Positions 5,012 through 58,384 of a DNA stretch of 64,000 nucleotides are shown piece by piece. A program made the translations under genes and the position numbers. The stretch is from Candidatus Poribacteria bacterium. GTDB lineage: Bacteria > Poribacteria > WGA-4E > WGA-3G. The notes beneath the pieces are model-generated. The model had not been told where the DNA came from. It made no database searches and saw only the letters and a program-made list of their open reading frames with translations. The stretch lies in the NCBI GenBank assembly GCA_022823085.1, contig JAJDXV010000033.1, positions 17,333-81,332 on the forward strand. Direction: 5' to 3'. Position 1 is the stretch's first letter. Every line of letters starts with the position of its first letter.

Positions 5012-5137
5012 GCAAAACGCATTCGCTTCGCTATGAGAACGCAGCTTCTGGATCATACTATCGTTTGGACACGCTTCTGTAGAATAGGAAACTGTTGGTT
5101 TCCTGTTCAATCTTCTGTGAATTATCAGGACACCTTC

Positions 5138-6010
5138 ATGCCACAGACACAGCTAACTTCATCGGAAGACACCGTGAAACGAAGTGGAACGGTGACCAAA
5201 TTTAATAATTTAAAAACCCGGCAACGGATGCGTGAATTCTACGAAACATCGGAAAGCTATAAAAGCCTTCTCGATGCACACGACGAAACCTATCTCCGAC
5301 ACTACGTAGAACTGGTCGTCCGTTACGCGCCACCGCGTTCCAAGGTCCTCGATCTCGGATGCGGGAACGGTATCTCCGCGAAACTGCTCAATCAGGCAGA
5401 TTTTGATGTCGTCGGCACCGATATTTCGCCGCTCTTTCTCAAGGAGGCACGGAACTGGGAAAACCCGCGCCTCAAATACGAAGTCTGCGATGTACTCGAA
5501 CTCCCTTTTGACAGTAATACCTTCGATGTTATCTGCTCAAATGAATTGGTTGAACATCTACCAGACGTGGAGACGGCTTTAACGGAGATGGGACGCGTGG
5601 TACGCAAGGGTGGACGCATTGTCATCTCTGGACCGAACCTCTGTTCCCCTTTAATCCCACTGCTGGATTGGCTCCGCCTGATATCCGGCAAACCGGGCAG
5701 ACCGGTCTGGGGTGAAACGAAACGGCAAGCGTTCCAACAGTTCAAACGCAACTGTCAGCTCTATTTACAGAAACGGTTCTTCACAAAATCGCCGCAATTC
5801 ATCTATAGAGAACCCGATTTACAAGCAGACGCAATCGGCGGCGACGCTGATAGTGCATACTACGCAAGTCCGATAGACCTCGCGCAATTTTTCCGACAAA
5901 ACGGGTTCACGATCGTCAAAAAGGCTGTCGGGTTCGGCATAAAAGGCAGAATTATCGCTGGCACATTTCCGTATATGAGCCCTTACATCACCCTGGTTGT
6001 AGAAAAATGA
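5138..6010 (+). CDS. Class I SAM-dependent methyltransferase
   Basis: VLDLGCGNGISAKLL ... DVICSNELVEHLPDVETALTEMGRVVRKGG; start moved to the internal ATG (MPQTQLTSS). Confidence 0.85.
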   Translation: MPQTQLTSSEDTVKRSGTVTKFNNLKTRQRMREFYETSESYKSLLDAHDETYLRHYVELVVRYAPPRSKVLDLGCGNGISAKLLNQADFDVVGTDISPLFLKEARNWENPRLKYEVCDVLELPFDSNTFDVICSNELVEHLPDVETALTEMGRVVRKGGRIVISGPNLCSPLIPLLDWLRLISGKPGRPVWGETKRQAFQQFKRNCQLYLQKRFFTKSPQFIYREPDLQADAIGGDADSAYYASPIDLAQFFRQNGFTIVKKAVGFGIKGRIIAGTFPYMSPYITLVVEK

Positions 6011-6843
6011 ACATCCGTGCGAACGACTTTGTCTTAGAGATAGGGAGCGGTCACAATCCGAAAGCGCGTTCGGATGTCTTATGCGATAAATTCATAGAAG
6101 ATGATGAACAACGCGGCGGCGGAATCGTTACCGACCGTCCGATCGTCGAAGCCGACGGACAGTTCCTCCCGTTCGCAGACCAAGCGTTTGATTATGTCAT
6201 CTGCGCACACGTACTGGAGCATGTTGAAGACCCGAAACAACTCATCGCTGAACTCATGCGCGTGGCACGGCGCGGCTACATCGAAACGCCCTCTGAAATA
6301 GGCGAACGGATATACGGATGGCACTACCACCGATGGATCGTTAATCTAATCGACGGACGTTTAACACTCCAAAAAAACAACCAGCAACCGCAGTTCGGAC
6401 AACTGTTCCACACACTCGCGGCGAAAGACAAGCACTGGAAACGGTTCCATATTACGCACCACAATATCTTTCTCGTTCAATACGAATGGGAAAACAATAT
6501 AGATTACGAAATACGACCCGAAACGGAACCGATACTCGACTTAGAATGTCCGGCGACCTTACAGACACTTATTGCTCCCGACGGTAGCAATCAAGGCAAA
6601 AATCGGTGGCTACCACTTCTCAAAAATGCTGTGCCGCGAGGGATCGTCTCCCGCGCAAAATCGTTTTTGGCAAAAGGTAAAAGTCGCCAGAAAAAAACAT
6701 TACAAGAGATTCTCGTCTGCCCGCAATGTAAAGGTGCGATTACATGGGAAGAACAGCGTCTCCACTGCAAAGCCTGCGAACAACACTATCCAATTACTAA
6801 CGGAATTCCGAGACTTTTTAATTTTTCGCAAGGCGTAAGGTAA
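6007..6843 (+). CDS. SAM-dependent methyltransferase with Trm112-like C-terminal zinc ribbon
   Basis: VLEIGSGHNPKARSDVLCDKF, CAHVLEHVEDPKQLIAELMRV; C-terminal LVCPQCKGAITW...LHCKACEQHYPITNGIPRL; overlaps previous stop. Confidence 0.82.
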   Translation: MNIRANDFVLEIGSGHNPKARSDVLCDKFIEDDEQRGGGIVTDRPIVEADGQFLPFADQAFDYVICAHVLEHVEDPKQLIAELMRVARRGYIETPSEIGERIYGWHYHRWIVNLIDGRLTLQKNNQQPQFGQLFHTLAAKDKHWKRFHITHHNIFLVQYEWENNIDYEIRPETEPILDLECPATLQTLIAPDGSNQGKNRWLPLLKNAVPRGIVSRAKSFLAKGKSRQKKTLQEILVCPQCKGAITWEEQRLHCKACEQHYPITNGIPRLFNFSQGVR

Positions 6844-6991
6844 AGTAATTAGTTTGTTGACGTTTTTTCTCATATCCGCCTGCACCGTTGTTGCAGGCTA
6901 CCATTCTTAATTGGCGCAAAGCGTAAGATAAAGTAATTAGTTTGTTGACGTTTTTTCTCATATCCGCCTGCGCCGTTGTTGCAGGCTACCA
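6827..6991. repeat. Two direct copies (period 88 bp) of a repeat containing a GCCTGCA/TGCAGGC hairpin
   Basis: cgcaaRgcgtaagRtaaagtaattagtttgttgacgttttttctcatatccgcctgcRccgttgttgcaggctaccat, copies at 6827 and 6915. Confidence 0.9.
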
Positions 6992-7304
6992 TCTTTAGTT
7001 ACCGTAGCTCGTAACGAAGTGGAGAGCGGATTTAAGGAAGCACATCAATAGTCCAAACCCACTTGACTGACCGCAAGGAAAATTAAAAACTTAGTCTGAA
7101 ACGAAGTGGAAGACGGATTACGTAAAAGCAGTCCATCCATAAAACCCACTTGACTGACAGCATCTTTAGTTACCGTAGCTCGTAACGAAGTGGAGAGCGG
7201 ATTTAAGGAAGCACATCAATAATCCAAACCCACTTGACTAACCGCAAGGAAAATTAAAAAATCCGCAAGGAAAATTAAAAAATCCGCAAGGAAAATTTAA
7301 AAAT
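6990..7304 (+). repeat. Direct repeats: ctttagttaccgtagctcgtaacgaagtggagagcggatttaagg...ccgcaaggaaaattaaaaa (about 6990 and 7161), one diverged copy between, then three tandem tccgcaaggaaaattaaaaa boxes
   Basis: Direct reading. Confidence 0.9.
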
Positions 7305-8282
7305 ATGAATGTTGTACCGAAAGAATTTATTCGCGTGATGCCAGATACGATGCAAGACTTTATCAGCGAAGCGTTCCAGAAAGCAGGCACCACGGCGGAA
7401 GATGCCACACATATAGCAAACCTGTTAGTGCTCACAGATCTGCGCGGTGTATTCAGCCATGGCACCCGCCAAACGCCCGGATATATCGGGATGATGCTCG
7501 ATGGCAAAGTCAACCCACGTCCGAACGTCCGATGCATCGACGAATCCCCGACGACAGCCGTCTACGACGGCGACGGTGGGATGGGACATTTTGCCTCGTA
7601 TCACGCCGCAAAAGCAGCCGTTAAAAAAGCCAAAGAGATGGGACTCGGTGCCGCAACGAGTCGGAACCACTTCCATTTCGGGAGTGCAGGCAAATATTCG
7701 AGGCTCGCACTCGAAGTAGATTGTGCCGGGTTCGCCGTCTCCTGCCACCGTTTCCGACACAACCCGGACGGTGTGATTGCCACCGCAACCGGTGCCTCGC
7801 CGATGAGTTTTGCGATCCCAGCAGGCGACCAACCGCCCATAGTCGTCGATATGGCAACCGGCATCTATGGATCACAGCCATTTGAAGAAGCATTTGAACA
7901 GAATCCAGCTGCGTTCTTCAAGATGTTGGGATTGAGCCATGTCAGCCATGCACTCGGTGGATTTATGGCAGGTATCTGGCTCTTCGATAAACCGCCGGAT
8001 CCGCCAACAATCTGGGAAGGTGCCAATCAAGGTGCCTTCATCGCAGCGATCGACATCTCCCGATTCCGACCAATTGACGCATACAAAGCGGAGATCGATC
8101 AACATATCCACGACGCACGGCAGATGCAACCGGCACCGGGTTACGACCGATCGGACTTACCCGGTGGTTTAGAATGGGAGCGCGAACAGGAATGGGCTGA
8201 AATCGGTATACCGGTCGGCGAAGCACATCAGGAACAGTTGAAAACAGTTGCTGAACGCATCGGCATTCCGCTGCCATTCTAA
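7305..8282 (+). CDS. Ldh family oxidoreductase (malate/L-lactate dehydrogenase-like)
   Basis: DLRGVFSHGTRQTPGYIGMMLDGKVNPRPN; AAKAAVKKAKEMGLGAATSRNHFHFGSAGKYS; TGASPMSFAIPAGDQPPIVVDMAT. Confidence 0.85.
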   Translation: MNVVPKEFIRVMPDTMQDFISEAFQKAGTTAEDATHIANLLVLTDLRGVFSHGTRQTPGYIGMMLDGKVNPRPNVRCIDESPTTAVYDGDGGMGHFASYHAAKAAVKKAKEMGLGAATSRNHFHFGSAGKYSRLALEVDCAGFAVSCHRFRHNPDGVIATATGASPMSFAIPAGDQPPIVVDMATGIYGSQPFEEAFEQNPAAFFKMLGLSHVSHALGGFMAGIWLFDKPPDPPTIWEGANQGAFIAAIDISRFRPIDAYKAEIDQHIHDARQMQPAPGYDRSDLPGGLEWEREQEWAEIGIPVGEAHQEQLKTVAERIGIPLPF

Positions 8283-12131: not shown

Positions 12132-12152
12132 GCCCGTAATGTAATGGAGGGC
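12132..12152 (+). repeat. 13-nt-loop hairpin (GCCC/GGGC stem)
   Basis: GCCC gtaatgtaatgga GGGC. Confidence 0.7.
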
Positions 12153-12182: not shown

Positions 12183-12692
12183 ATGAACGTCATTCCTCCG
12201 CAAGGTAAAATTAAATTAACACACTTCGATGAAAAAGGCAATACACGGATGGTAGACGTCGGTGGCAAAGAAGAGACGTTGCGCATCGCCATCGCACGCG
12301 GGCATATTACTGCCCAACCAGAAACACTCCGATTAATCGCTGAGCAAAAGATGAAGAAAGGCGATGTCTTAGAGGTCGCACGCCTTGCAGGTATCATGGC
12401 AGCGAAACGGACCGGTGAACTCATCCCGCTCTGCCACCCGCTCGCTTTGACTTCAATTCGCGTCGAACTCGGCATCGCAACCGATACATCACGCATCGAA
12501 ATTGAATCAGAAATCCAAACGATCGGTCGCACCGGTGTAGAGATGGAAGCACTCACAGCCGTATCCGTCGCTGCCTTAACTGTTTACGATATGTGCAAAG
12601 CAGTGGACAAGGAGATGGTCATCGGTGATGTTAGACTTATAAAAAAAACTGGCGGAAAAAGTGATGATTTCATATCCAATTCCGACACATAG
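12183..12692 (+). CDS. moaC: Cyclic pyranopterin monophosphate synthase MoaC
   Basis: LTHFDEKGNTRMVDVGGKEETLRIAIARGHI...GDVLEVARLAGIMAAKRTGELIPLCHPLALT...GVEMEALTAVSVAALTVYDMCKAVDKEM; start moved from 11982 to internal ATG. Confidence 0.95.
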   Translation: MNVIPPQGKIKLTHFDEKGNTRMVDVGGKEETLRIAIARGHITAQPETLRLIAEQKMKKGDVLEVARLAGIMAAKRTGELIPLCHPLALTSIRVELGIATDTSRIEIESEIQTIGRTGVEMEALTAVSVAALTVYDMCKAVDKEMVIGDVRLIKKTGGKSDDFISNSDT

Positions 12693-15791: not shown

Positions 15792-15816
15792 CTGCCCGAA
15801 ACGAAGTGGCGGGCAG
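15792..15816 (+). repeat. 13-nt-loop hairpin (CTGCCC/GGGCAG) immediately upstream of moxR RBS
   Basis: CTGCCC gaaacgaagtggc GGGCAG ctcaggagg. Confidence 0.7.
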
Positions 15817-38943: not shown

Positions 38944-39080
38944 GGAGTAGCCAGTAAGCAGTTATAAGTTATAAGTTATAAGTTATAAGTTAAGAGGTGT
39001 TAGAATTATCGCATCCCTCTTTTAACTTATAACCAATAACTAAAAGGCGTACTCGCCGTACCAATAACTGCGTACTCGCT
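38944..39080. repeat. Heptamer hairpin element copy A (gttataa)n, direct repeat with 39955..40081
   Basis: ccagtaagcagttataag...ttaagaggtgttagaattatcgcatccctcttttaac...ggcgtactcgccgtaccaataactgcgtactcgct. Confidence 0.95.
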
Positions 39081-39950
39081 ATGAAAAATATGAGACTCGG
39101 CATCGTTGGACTCTGCGGTGATTTCCGCACACTGACATCAGAGCAGATCGCAAACATCAAGGCTCTGGAATTTACAGGTTTAAGTTTCCATTTTCCCAGT
39201 GCAGAGATACCGTCTGTACCGCCAGACGCGTGCACGCGTTGTGTAGAAATGTTGGAAGCCGCGGAACTCGATCTCGTGCAATTCGGCATCACATACAACG
39301 AATGCCTCTTTCACCCGAATGCCGCTGTCCGAGAAGCCGCGATCGCAAGCGTCCAACGCGGCATGGCAACCGCAGCCGCGCTCAACGCGCAACACTACCT
39401 GTTCCGACCGGGTAGCCTTAACCCTGACGGTGCTTGGACTTCGCATCGGGACAACTATCTCCCTGAATCGATGGAACGCTTGATTGAGACCCTGAAACCG
39501 ATCGCAGCACACGCCGAAAAACACGAACTCACACTCGTTATGGAGACACACGCCGTCTCCATCATGGATTCACCGGAAACCTGTCTCGAAATCGTTGAGA
39601 AGACCGGTTCCGAACGATTACGCATCGTTATGGATTTCGTCAACCATTTCCAAACACTCCGACAGGTCTACGATAGTGAAAATCGGCTTAACCACATCTT
39701 TGACGTGATGGGTCCTGTCGCACCTATGGCGCATATCAAAGACATCAGCGTTCAGAACGGACTCGTACTCCATCTCAATGAAGAGGTGCCCGGTGAAGGG
39801 GAGTTGGATATCGGTGTGGCACTCAAACGTTTCGATGCCCTCTATCCCGATGGCTATGGATTGATAGAACATCTACCCACGGAGAAGATCCCGCTCGCAA
39901 ACACCAACGTCCGACGTATCGCCGCCGAAAATGGCGTTAACATCTATTAG
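39081..39950 (+). CDS. Sugar phosphate isomerase/epimerase (xylose isomerase-like TIM barrel)
   Basis: RLGIVGLCGDFRTL...LTLVMETHAVSIMDSPETCLEIVEKTGSERLRIVMDFVN...HIKDISVQNGL...PGEGELDIGVALKRF. Confidence 0.8.
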   Translation: MKNMRLGIVGLCGDFRTLTSEQIANIKALEFTGLSFHFPSAEIPSVPPDACTRCVEMLEAAELDLVQFGITYNECLFHPNAAVREAAIASVQRGMATAAALNAQHYLFRPGSLNPDGAWTSHRDNYLPESMERLIETLKPIAAHAEKHELTLVMETHAVSIMDSPETCLEIVEKTGSERLRIVMDFVNHFQTLRQVYDSENRLNHIFDVMGPVAPMAHIKDISVQNGLVLHLNEEVPGEGELDIGVALKRFDALYPDGYGLIEHLPTEKIPLANTNVRRIAAENGVNIY

Positions 39951-39954
39951 TGGA

Positions 39955-40081
39955 GGAGTAACCAGTAAGCAGTTATAAGTTATAAGTTAAGAGGTGTTAG
40001 AATTATCGCATCCCTCTTTTAACTAACTTATAACCAATAACTAAAAGGCGTACTCGCCGTACCAATAACTGCGTACTCGCT
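39955..40081. repeat. Heptamer hairpin element copy B
   Basis: Near-identical to 38944..39080 with fewer gttataa units and an extra taac. Confidence 0.95.
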
Positions 40082-42640
40082 ATGAAAAACATGTTCAAAA
40101 ACACACGCATCACACAACGCTTTTGGGCGTATACATTGCTCGCCATTTTTCTTTTTGTTACGCTTTTACCCGCAGTATTCGCGCAAGAAGAAACGGCCAC
40201 CGATGCTTTAGCAGAAAGTGCAAGTAGCCTCTGGGATCGGGTAAAAATCTATGTTGCGGCTGCCGCAATTAGCTTTCTGTTTGCTGGTATCTTCTACATT
40301 ATAGGACTCTTTCGGAAAGATAGACTCCTAAAGACGCTCCTCAATAAATATGTCGTTTTTCAGATGAAGGGCGAAGACAAACGGTATCGCGGCACGATGC
40401 GCCTTGAGATCACAGGGATGGAAATTATCTCCGAAGAATCGAGGCAACGGGGACACGCACCGAGTTATATCTTCACAAACAAAGAGCGTGAAGACCAAAT
40501 TGTCGCATATATCCGCTATCACGATACGATGAACGAGCGTGAACTACGCGAACGCGCCTGGGAACTCGAGCGCGTCTACCACCCACCCCTCCTCTACAAA
40601 ATACGGCGGAAAATACGAAACATGTTCGTCGCGCTCGGAGAAGCCTCAAAAAATGCGATCAGCATGGTGTTTCAAGGGGTCCGCAACAGTTTAGGAACGC
40701 GCTTCAACCGGTATAACCAAGCATACCAACAAGCACTCAACAGAAATAACGCAGATGTTACCGGACTCAGCGAACTCGATGAATCCACCGACTATCTCGA
40801 AGAAGAAGAGGTCTATGAACGTCTCATAGAACGTCTCGTCGGCACACGCATCAAAGTGCGTACAGCGACAGGCGAATATACCGCGATCCTCAAAGACTAT
40901 AATAATAAACATATCGCTTTAATGGACGTGAAAGACAAAGACAACAACGGGTACAGAGATGATTGGAAATATGAAATTGAGTATAAACACAACTTAAATG
41001 CGCTAAATCGACGCGACGACCGCGGCTTGCGCTGTCGCGCCGAAGCCGGCGACGCAAACGGAGACTTTCTCGTCTTTGAAAACAATACACCTTATCAGAT
41101 CCGACTCGGGAAAATCGTGTTTTGGGATGGCGCGCCCGAATGGGGTCGGGATTTTGAGTTCAAAAAATATACGATCAACGCCTTCAGTGTCCAGAAACTC
41201 CGGGTTCGCCCCGTCGCCAGACATAAGGTCGGCCCATTCGACCGCGTTGCGAAACCTGAACGACTCAGGATAGGAAATTATAAAAAGTTTAGGATCAACT
41301 TTCGCTCTTTTCGCGATGCCGACATAATCTTCCCGCGTACAGGCGGACGCTGCACCATTATCGAAAGCGCGGAAAAATATCAACCCGAACTCTTCAGTCT
41401 AAGCGGCTTGACAGACACGATTTTAGACATGAGCGATAAAGAAGACATCGCCATCGCAGATAAGGAAGGCAAACCTATCCACGGCATAAACATCGTCCAC
41501 GGATATGTGACCAACGTCAACGAAGAACGCATCGATCTGAAAACGATTGACACCAGTTATAGCCGAAGATGGGATATTGAAAACGCCTTCCGCAGTTTCG
41601 ACAATAGATTCCGTCGCGGATTCCCGCTCCACAAACGGCTAATGCCGACAAATCGCGCCAAAATTACCGCACACGCCGCCATCGTTGAACAGATACACGA
41701 CAACGCCGTTCGGCACGAGGCGTTAGCACCGCTCGTCTATCCGCAGAGCCGAACGCTAAATCGGACAGAACAACGCAAACGCCGCCGAAAACTCATCCGA
41801 AACCGAATTGCCGGAAGCATAAACGCTGTCGTTAACAGCAAGTTCTTCAAACCCGATACCGGAATCGCCAGAATCCCAGGTGTCACCCGCTCAGAAGTAC
41901 AAATGGCGATGCCCCTCAAACTCATGGCACTCACCGGGAACACTTCCACAGTCGAGTATCCTGTCCTCGAACGTTTCGAGTACATTCAAGAACATCATAT
42001 ACTCTATAGCGAAGTCCAAAACTTACGAACCGACCGGCTCCCGAAAACCGATATTTTGTGGATCGGCAACGGTGAAATCTACAAATCCGGCTATCGACTG
42101 AACATCGATGCGGAACATCGGATCAAAAACTTCGTCAGCCAAGGCGGCGTCGTCATCGTCTCCGGGCAAGATGTCAAGGCAAGTGCCAAGCAGCGCCGTG
42201 GAACCGGATGGATACCCGAACCGCTCACCGGCATCGAGTGTGACGAAACTTATGAACTCTTTCCGACATCACAAGGAAAACGCTCACGGATCTTCCAACG
42301 ACCGAATCCAATAAACGGAAATCACCACGCCGATCCAAACGCGATGGACCAACCCCTAATCCGGCTCGACGATATGTGGCTCGACCCACTCAGAAAATGG
42401 ACACCGCTCGCGAAAACCAATACGGCAGCAGCGGGGCTAAAGGACGGGTTTGAGGACGCCTCCGCACTGCTTCTCCTGCCATTTCAGAAGGGGTTATACA
42501 TCGTTACCAGCTTGAAAAATGAGACAGAAACGGATGTGAAAATCAACGATAAAATCATGGAAAATCTGCTCCACTTCTCTGTCAGATGGATCGACAAACA
42601 ACGTTCACCGCGCAAACCACACAACGGAGCCGTAAACTAA
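40082..42640 (+). CDS. Large membrane-associated protein, possibly DUF4159/GATase-like C-terminal region
   Basis: Signal/TM segments AYTLLAIFLFVTLLPAVFA and VAAAAISFLFAGIFYIIGLF; C-terminal NIDAEHRIKNFVSQGGVVIVSGQDV. Confidence 0.6.
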   Translation: MKNMFKNTRITQRFWAYTLLAIFLFVTLLPAVFAQEETATDALAESASSLWDRVKIYVAAAAISFLFAGIFYIIGLFRKDRLLKTLLNKYVVFQMKGEDKRYRGTMRLEITGMEIISEESRQRGHAPSYIFTNKEREDQIVAYIRYHDTMNERELRERAWELERVYHPPLLYKIRRKIRNMFVALGEASKNAISMVFQGVRNSLGTRFNRYNQAYQQALNRNNADVTGLSELDESTDYLEEEEVYERLIERLVGTRIKVRTATGEYTAILKDYNNKHIALMDVKDKDNNGYRDDWKYEIEYKHNLNALNRRDDRGLRCRAEAGDANGDFLVFENNTPYQIRLGKIVFWDGAPEWGRDFEFKKYTINAFSVQKLRVRPVARHKVGPFDRVAKPERLRIGNYKKFRINFRSFRDADIIFPRTGGRCTIIESAEKYQPELFSLSGLTDTILDMSDKEDIAIADKEGKPIHGINIVHGYVTNVNEERIDLKTIDTSYSRRWDIENAFRSFDNRFRRGFPLHKRLMPTNRAKITAHAAIVEQIHDNAVRHEALAPLVYPQSRTLNRTEQRKRRRKLIRNRIAGSINAVVNSKFFKPDTGIARIPGVTRSEVQMAMPLKLMALTGNTSTVEYPVLERFEYIQEHHILYSEVQNLRTDRLPKTDILWIGNGEIYKSGYRLNIDAEHRIKNFVSQGGVVIVSGQDVKASAKQRRGTGWIPEPLTGIECDETYELFPTSQGKRSRIFQRPNPINGNHHADPNAMDQPLIRLDDMWLDPLRKWTPLAKTNTAAAGLKDGFEDASALLLLPFQKGLYIVTSLKNETETDVKINDKIMENLLHFSVRWIDKQRSPRKPHNGAVN

Positions 42641-47284: not shown

Positions 47285-47309
47285 GTTATGATACAACTTT
47301 TCAACCGCG

Positions 47310-47560
47310 CCGCTTTCGTAGCATAACCTGTTAGGTTGTGCCCCTTTGTCTTTCGTAGCATAACCTGTTAGGTTGTACCTTTCATAACCTGTTAGGTTGT
47401 ACCTTTTTGTCTTTCGTAGCATAACCTGTTAGGTTGTGCCTCTTTGTCTTTCGTAGCATAACCTGTTAGGTTGTGCCTCTTTGTCTTTCGTAGCATAACC
47501 TGTTAGGTTGTGCCTCTTTGTCTTTCGTAGCATAACCTGTTAGGTTGTGCCTCTTTGTAT
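47310..47560 (+). repeat. Tandem array of ~37-bp units ctttcgtagcataacctgttaggttgtgcctctttgt
   Basis: Direct reading; about six units, one internally truncated; each holds a 9-bp stem/GTT-loop hairpin. Confidence 0.95.
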
Positions 47561-47573
47561 AAGGAGAAAAGAA

Positions 47574-48529: not shown

Positions 48530-48640
48530 AGATCGAAAATATCAAGATCGAAAATATCGACAATAATGCCATTTGACAAAGGCACGATATTTTCGGTCTT
48601 AATAATGTTATTTGACAAAGGCACGATATTTTCGGTCTCA
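48530..48640. repeat. Direct and inverted repeats of (a)gatcgaaaatatcg / cgatattttcggtct
   Basis: agatcgaaaatatcg (two) and (a/c)ttatttgacaaaggcacgatattttcggtct-type units (two); 15-bp stem with one G-T pair possible. Confidence 0.85.
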
Positions 48641-48674
48641 GGGAAATTAAAAATACGCAAGGAAAATTTAAAAT

Positions 48675-57437: not shown

Positions 57438-58124
57438 TTAGCGATAGCGCGTCGGATCGGGGATACCTGCCGCTTTAAAGCCCCTTTTCCGAAGCAGGCA
57501 ACTATCACAACCACCACATGCGCTGCCTTCCGCGTCAGGATCGTAACAACTTAAAGTGAGACTATAATCGACACCGAGTGCTGTGCCGATTCGGATGATT
57601 TCCGCCTTCGTTTTATCAATAAGTGGCGCGCGGATCTTCAGTTCTGTTTTCCCTTCAACACCAACTTGCGTCGCAAGGTTCGCCATCTTTTGATAGGCAC
57701 TTATATATTCGGGACGACAATCTGGATAGCCGCTATAATCCATAGCGTTGACACCGATAAAAATGGTATCCGCACCGAGCACTTCAGCCCAAGCGAGCGC
57801 GTAGGAGAGAAAAATCGTGTTCCGAGCAGGGACGTAAGTTATCGGTATGCTATCCCCCATCTCTCCATCCGCCCTATCCTTCGGCACTGCAATATCGGCT
57901 GTCAAGGCGGAACCACCGAAGATACGCAGATCGATGTCAACGATCACGTGTTGTTTCACACCGAATGCTTTTGCTGCCTTTTCTGCAAACTGCAGCTCCA
58001 CCGTGTGCCGTTGACCGTACCGAAAACTCATGCAATATGTATCATAACCCGCATCGCGCGCGATAGCGAGGATTGTCGTTGAATCTAAGCCGCCACTCAG
58101 CAAGACGACCGCCTTTTTAAGCAC
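57438..58124 (-). CDS. queC: 7-cyano-7-deazaguanine synthase
   Basis: [75 protein letters not shown]. Confidence 0.96.
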
Positions 58125-58200: not shown

Positions 58201-58221
58201 GCCCTCCACTACGTTACGGGC
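58201..58221 (-). repeat. 13-nt-loop hairpin (GCCC/GGGC) upstream of queC
   Basis: Reverse complement GCCC gtaacgtagtgga GGGC. Confidence 0.7.
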
Positions 58222-58359: not shown

Positions 58360-58384
58360 CTGCTCGTAATGTAATGGAGAGCAG
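58360..58384 (+). repeat. 13-nt-loop hairpin (CTGCTC/GAGCAG)
   Basis: CTGCTC gtaatgtaatgga GAGCAG. Confidence 0.7.

Follow-up and report, generated by a model that had tools for sequence, protein, structure and literature searches.

The window, meaning the whole 64,000-nt stretch of Candidatus Poribacteria DNA analysed here, belongs to a 5.2 Mb assembly of 181 contigs (genome G000) and contains eight copies of a short hairpin, each scoring E 5e-13 to 1.5e-10 against a covariance model for which 28 copies from the same genome were used. The copies fall into two leader types, A and B, and are given below together with the genes they serve (arms and loop separated by slashes).

5170..5194, plus strand: type A hairpin, CACCGT / GAAACGAAGTGGA / ACGGTG, the eighth copy, inside the first-ATG ORF 5033-6010
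7001..7304, plus strand: triple type B leader array with units of ~85 nt, reaching the ATG at 7305
7007..7027, plus strand: type B hairpin 1 of the tandem array, GCTC / GTAACGAAGTGGA / GAGC
7094..7114, plus strand: type B hairpin 2 of the tandem array, GTCT / GAAACGAAGTGGA / AGAC
7178..7198, plus strand: type B hairpin 3 of the array, GCTC / GTAACGAAGTGGA / GAGC, 98% identical to copy 1 over 100 nt
7305..8282, plus strand: Ldh_2 malate/L-lactate dehydrogenase gene, served by the triple array
12132..12152, plus strand: type B hairpin, GCCC / GTAATGTAATGGA / GGGC, with CCGCAAGG at 12198-12205
12210..12692, plus strand: moaC (PF01967), probable start directly after the leader
15792..15816, plus strand: type A hairpin, CTGCCC / GAAACGAAGTGGC / GGGCAG, then CAGGAGG, with ATG 15840 lying 29 nt past the loop
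15840..16847, plus strand: MoxR AAA ATPase gene, downstream of the 15792 leader
57438..58124, minus strand: queC (PF06508), with the 58201..58221 leader upstream of it
58201..58221, minus strand: type B hairpin, GCCC / GTAACGTAGTGGA / GGGC, its leader pointing into queC
58360..58384, plus strand: type A hairpin, CTGCTC / GTAATGTAATGGA / GAGCAG, 161 nt from its divergent partner at 58221

The original prediction, made from the letters of the window, had listed seven copies of a hairpin with co-varying stems. All seven are present at the positions given above, with perfectly paired arms and exactly 13 nt between them, while an eighth, at 5170-5194 on the plus strand, had been overlooked; the covariance model that it proposed as a check recovers exactly these eight. 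The hairpin family that it described comprises two distinct leader types. The genes it placed behind the copies (Ldh-like, moaC, moxR and queC) are the ones served, and the copy at 58360, which it placed near a gene 3' end, forms a divergent pair with the minus-strand copy at 58221.

Three of these sites have further features of their own. The methyltransferase domain encoded by ORF 5033-6010 begins well downstream in that frame, so the real start may follow the 5170 hairpin. In the triple array at 7001-7304, two units end in CCGCAAGGAAAATTAAAAA, which then recurs twice more. The start region of moaC (12198-12215) appears to contain no ATG, GTG or TTG; an in-frame ATT lies at 12210, from which the protein reads IKLTHFDEKG.

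The two leader types are built differently around a common tip. Type A consists of [AC]C[AG]GAAAC, a 6-bp stem and nnCAGGAGGCCATAATTAAAAA, and carries an SD; type B consists of CG-NA, a 4-bp stem, GGAT-TACGG, a spacer and AACCGCAAGGAAAATTAAAAA. The type B stem is followed by CCGCAAGG, and the leader length to that block is nearly constant (54-58 nt) even where the spacer sequence varies; some type-B leaders have a loop variant, GTCGC-AACGAAGGC-GCGAC, at their head. The length and conservation of the 13-nt loop are as originally described, but the loop is itself structured rather than a plain unpaired tip. It can be written as G-N-A / A-Y / triloop / R-T / G-G-A, that is, a 3x3 purine-rich internal loop (GNA/GGA) below a 2-bp helix that covaries (A-T, then C-G or T-A) and is capped by a triloop, mostly GWA (GAA or GTA). 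A few relatives have non-GWA triloops and keep the 2-bp helix (GAAACATCGTGGA, GAAACAACGTGGA).

Covariation in this structure is strong, as first proposed from seven copies, and it extends to many more. Across the 28 copies used for the model, 84% of cells are paired compared with 65% in shuffles, the covariation score is 0.56 compared with 0.22 for shuffled copies (0 of 500 shuffles reach the observed value), and all slid stem registers perform worse than the proposed one. Mutual information across 80 type-B and 47 type-A copies is highest almost exclusively at stem pairs and at the inner loop pair 5-9, which switches between C-G and T-A, and RNAalifold recovers the same two helices. Single whole leaders do not fold significantly better than their shuffles (free-energy z of -1.05 and -0.13), and the minimum-energy fold of a type-B example differs from the proposed hairpin. 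A further helix in type B, joining distant segments by pairing TACGG with ACCGAA or TTTAAG with TTTAA, is only suggested, as its covariation lies mainly between two sequence groups; its columns 50-52 and 83-85 (pair 51-84, z 11.9) would close the spacer just upstream of AACCGCAAGG. A pseudoknot between the loop AAGTGG and a downstream CCACTT, hinted at by some copies, is absent among the covarying pairs.

Genome-wide, the family is large. The loop pattern GNAAYGWARTGGM has 168 matches in the window's genome compared with 7 for a backwards-read control, and the pattern AACGAAGTGGA has 93 compared with 4; the covariance model finds at least 151 copies, and 172 copies were read in our survey. The position of these copies relative to genes is precise. 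An ATG-initiated ORF of at least 80 aa lies within 160 nt downstream of 111 of the 172 copies, compared with 26 in the opposite direction, and the distance from loop end to ATG peaks at 28-31 nt in type A (21 copies) and at 66-71 nt in type B (42 copies). The type-A spacing recurs in independent named genomes, with an ATG at 27-32 nt in 49 of 73 cases (25 of them at exactly 29 nt), whereas a random control has an ATG at 26-33 nt for 10 of 365 positions (~3%). In about a third of the copies the start codon is missing at the expected place. Position and strand are both non-random, contrary to the random placement that the original prediction had named as its refutation. TANNNT boxes show an excess at 21-25 nt ahead of type-B loops (25 compared with about 11 per bin), and this TATAAT-like -10 enrichment suggests that some type-B transcripts may begin just ahead of the hairpin.

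The abundance of the family is confined to one genus of sponge-symbiont Poribacteria. When the 25-nt type-A pattern was searched against 85,488 species genomes, 77 stretches matched, all of them from Candidatus Poribacteria. Pattern R1 matched in 39 of 39 searched genomes of the window's genus, mostly with 31 to at least 75 matches each. In other genera of the phylum the number is 0-2, and some of these few matches look real (a divergent type-A leader pair in G066 and a type-B leader in G036). Two members of the genus have fewer: 13-19 matches in G044 and a single one in G021, whose genome is one contig. Both are nested within the genus in a gene tree, so the near-absence in G021 seems to reflect loss or non-expansion rather than an ancestral state, and it could point to a trans factor. 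The sole G021 copy (L174) precedes a gene of the enolase superfamily, whereas at least 36 copies are present in G040, the sister of G021.

Comparison of orthologous genes shows that leaders persist with compensatory stem changes and are also gained and lost. The MoxR leader is kept in 12 of 29 species, with stems CTGCCC/GGGCAG, CTGCGC/GCGCAG (G008, G042) or CTGCTC/GAGCAG (G010), the 3' arm matching in each. In 7 of the 12, longer hairpins replace the tip and leave the outer stem intact (G022, G012, G017, G042, G003, G015 and G020, at loci L206, L207, L210, L217, L197, L200 and L201), and the inserted tips are mutually unrelated (ATGCC...GGCAT, GCAAGCC...GGCTTGC, AAATTCC...GGAATTT). The MoxR hairpin is disrupted in G002 and is lost in G019, where the MoxR protein is 99% identical and the SD block is kept. 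Several unrelated copies (L073, L134, L140, L143, L161, L125 and also L178, the G002 MoxR leader) have a ~24-nt cassette, GGGTTTTTGCTTGGGTGTTTCTT, in place of the hairpin's 3' side, which allows pairing of GAAAC with GTTTC. The tip of the hairpin looks like a hotspot of insertion or template switching. For Ldh, the leader or a variant of it is found in 19 of 29 species with several different stems, and some other orthologues retain only the CCGCAAGG end. At some genes, then, the leader is of long standing and its structure has been preserved, but its frequent loss at orthologues and the single copy in G021 show that it can be dispensed with.

These observations establish a genus-specific, structurally conserved family of leader hairpins with mobile behaviour. 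By its covarying structure, its constant position relative to start codon and SD, and its retention in orthologues, the family is a candidate cis-regulatory leader RNA. We consider it somewhat more probable than its alternatives combined that this is a Poribacteria-specific 5'-leader element which supplies the translation start of unrelated genes and has also been dispersed as a small interspersed repeat. The location of the hairpin on the sense strand, together with the SD and the fixed spacing, argues for action in mRNA, and we infer such RNA-level action from these sequence features. In this model the hairpin would form in the mRNA, in type B perhaps near its 5' end, and would be read by a trans factor, most simply an RNA-binding protein that recognises the purine loop. 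Binding of this factor would determine either how readily ribosomes reach the adjacent SD or how stable the mRNA is. The element would spread via some transposase or by recombination between leaders, with copies at start codons being kept and those elsewhere decaying.

The dispersal itself can be seen in several arrangements, and these also speak for a different reading, in which the family is a purely selfish repeat of the REP or MITE kind, recognised as single-stranded DNA or by a transposase, and its location at start codons merely reflects a preference for the A/T-rich TTAAAAA-ATG junction. Copies of one subtype, C (CATCGC GGAACGTAGTGGA GCGATG CACAAAAACTTAATAGTTAAAAA), recur almost unchanged at many sites and also as tandem units of 46 nt, units of both 46 and 49 nt being seen in the family. 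Several subtype-C copies lie within a composite of 147-161 bp containing two outward-facing leaders, in the order TTTTTAA(A)TTTTCCTTGCGGTT..., a minus-strand type-B or variant leader, a plus-strand subtype C and CTTAATAGTTAAAAA. This composite occurs in at least 5 unrelated places, and its type-B end often adjoins an ATG. Its ends (TTTTTAA...TTAAAAA) are short, and most copies of the family are single leaders without a second end. Neighbouring copies are divergent in 16 cases and convergent in 2, as a selfish repeat would have it and as is seen for the 58221/58360 pair, but divergent pairs are also expected between divergent genes.

The pattern of stem changes is also relevant to this reading. 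RNA helices usually tolerate G.U pairs well, yet among ~1,548 stem cells we found 21 G.U pairs and 21 A.C mismatches. Since G.U is no commoner than A.C, the arms appear to change together, unlike those of most RNA helices. Such joint change may come from concerted exchange of arms or whole modules, from dispersal of master copies, from arm-templated correction or from reading at the DNA level, and need not require selection on RNA, which keeps the selfish-DNA reading alive. In single-stranded DNA, too, stable hairpins with a GWA triloop and sheared-type purine pairs are known. Against a purely selfish origin stand the orientation of the loop, which reads in the same sense as the gene behind it, the presence of the SD within the element, start-codon spacing accurate to about 2 nt, and compensatory stems with long persistence at MoxR and Ldh. 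Nor do the compared sites reveal a means of movement. At one gene start G000 and G019 share a type-B leader that G002, G041, G003 and G044 lack, and at other element-free sites the whole intergenic stretch is replaced rather than showing a clean insertion. No target-site duplication was identified at compared sites with and without the leader, and no mobilising enzyme or related IS transposase was identified for leaders or composites. Overall, we regard the purely selfish repeat as rather improbable, though deserving of serious consideration.

A stronger version of the leader-element reading, which we put forward only tentatively, is that of a mobile translation-initiation module. Here, a MITE-like unit with outward-facing leaders, each comprising the hairpin, the SD and an A-rich run to the start codon, would by its insertion recruit a gene to a genus-wide post-transcriptional regulon read by an RNA-binding factor, and G021 would be a natural loss.

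The original prediction had offered a structured RNA or a hairpin-recognised mobile element. Both halves draw support, from the covarying structure and the tie to start codons on the one hand and from dispersal, including composite repeats, on the other, but the specific form of REP elements mobilised by RAYT (TnpA_REP) does not. Like REP, BIME and REPIN sequences, the family consists of high-copy short palindromes found as singles, tandems and inverted pairs; Y1 transposases occur in the genus, and a loose CGTAG consensus is present in the type-B 5' flank. However, placement, Y1 gene type and Y1 flanks all argue against such an origin, which we judge very unlikely. REPs are found predominantly near gene 3' ends (PMC3733652), whereas the leader hairpins lie at start codons and have a conserved 13-nt tip on a variable stem. 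The tag is not strict, with G at -7 in 75 of 130 and T at -6 in 79 of 130 type-B copies and the final G within the stem, and type A has no GTAG at all. No RAYT was found in the genome: the only Y1 gene found in G000 encodes an IS200/IS605 TnpA and lies next to a TnpB-like gene, and it scores 25.9 on the RAYT model, for which the cut-off is 80. No canonical hairpin flanks any of the genus Y1 genes examined, and Y1 count does not track copy number (5 Y1 genes and 1 hairpin in G021, 1 Y1 gene and ~170 hairpins in G000). The IS605-type element itself, with its TnpA and TnpB-like genes (L039, G000:C85), has no leader hairpin nearby.

A metabolite riboswitch or ribosomal-protein autoregulatory site would likewise place a conserved structured motif in the 5' leader next to the SD. 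This we find highly improbable, as the hairpins can exceed 100 copies in a genome and the 68 downstream proteins examined, which match 103 Pfam families, share no common pathway. A search of Rfam 15, a comparison suggested with the original prediction, gave no family match at gathering or relaxed thresholds, the latter including relaxed E-values. Compared with the cis-regulatory leader motifs of Rfam, the family is alike in combining a covarying stem and a conserved loop in a 5' leader, and differs in having far more copies and more diverse targets and in dispersing as a repeat. A CsrA/RsmA-type regulon, in which the repeated GGA (in the loop, after the stem and at the SD, with up to four in type B) would bind CsrA, was rejected as exceedingly unlikely because CsrA (PF02599) is absent from the searched genomes of the genus and from its taxonomic family, and within the phylum was found only in 5 distant genomes. 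The hairpin was suspected to be an RNA motif already published for Poribacteria, but a full-text literature search found no 'Poribacteria-1', and none of the Rfam models matched.

Promoters, terminators and RNase sites are among the known cargo of bacterial mobile repeats, and the systems nearest in behaviour to the present family are MITEs that supply expression signals, such as Correia, and BOX elements. Correia/NEMIS elements, the MITEs of Neisseria, are short dispersed repeats which lie upstream of genes and may provide them with promoters and RNase III sites (PMC10969869). The leader family shares the small size and the position upstream of genes, but its ends carry a conserved hairpin and SD at a fixed start-codon spacing, with compensatory stem evolution; the words 'ribosome' and 'start codon' appear nowhere in the text of that review of MITEs (PMC10969869). 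BOX elements of Streptococcus pneumoniae are presented, in part of the cited account, as modular, tandemly variable, transcribed and structured repeats that join 5' UTRs (PMC3049150). By that partial description they are set apart by other modules and another size, and it mentions neither start-codon anchoring nor an internal SD (PMC3049150). In the literature searched, the coverage of which is incomplete, we found no account of a repeat family whose members bring their own SD leader anchored at the start codon. If the favoured leader-element reading is true, a repeat carrying a complete structured ribosome-binding leader before some hundred unrelated genes would offer a direct dispersal route to a post-transcriptional regulon. 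The genus provides a natural test, with dozens of species having tens to more than 100 copies, one having nearly none, and orthologues occurring with and without the leader.

The window also contains several other repeats. An 88-nt tandem duplication (91%) occupies 6816-6991, between a methyltransferase gene and the triple leader array. Another repeat, GGCGTACTCGCCGTAC...TAACTGCGTACTCGCTAT, is found at 39023-39092 and 40024-40093 in the window and at L081 and L145, lying directly before start codons or leader hairpins. A 37-bp tandem array of CATAACCTGTTAGGTTGTGCCTCTTTGTCTTTCGTAG at 47285-47567 abuts the start of an ORF on its upstream side. At 48562-48673, AATAATGxxATTTGACAAAGGCACGATATTTTCGGTCT occurs twice and is followed by a hairpin-less CGCAAGGAAAATTTAAAATATG start; sequence resembling this repeat is also present at L122, L128 and L146.
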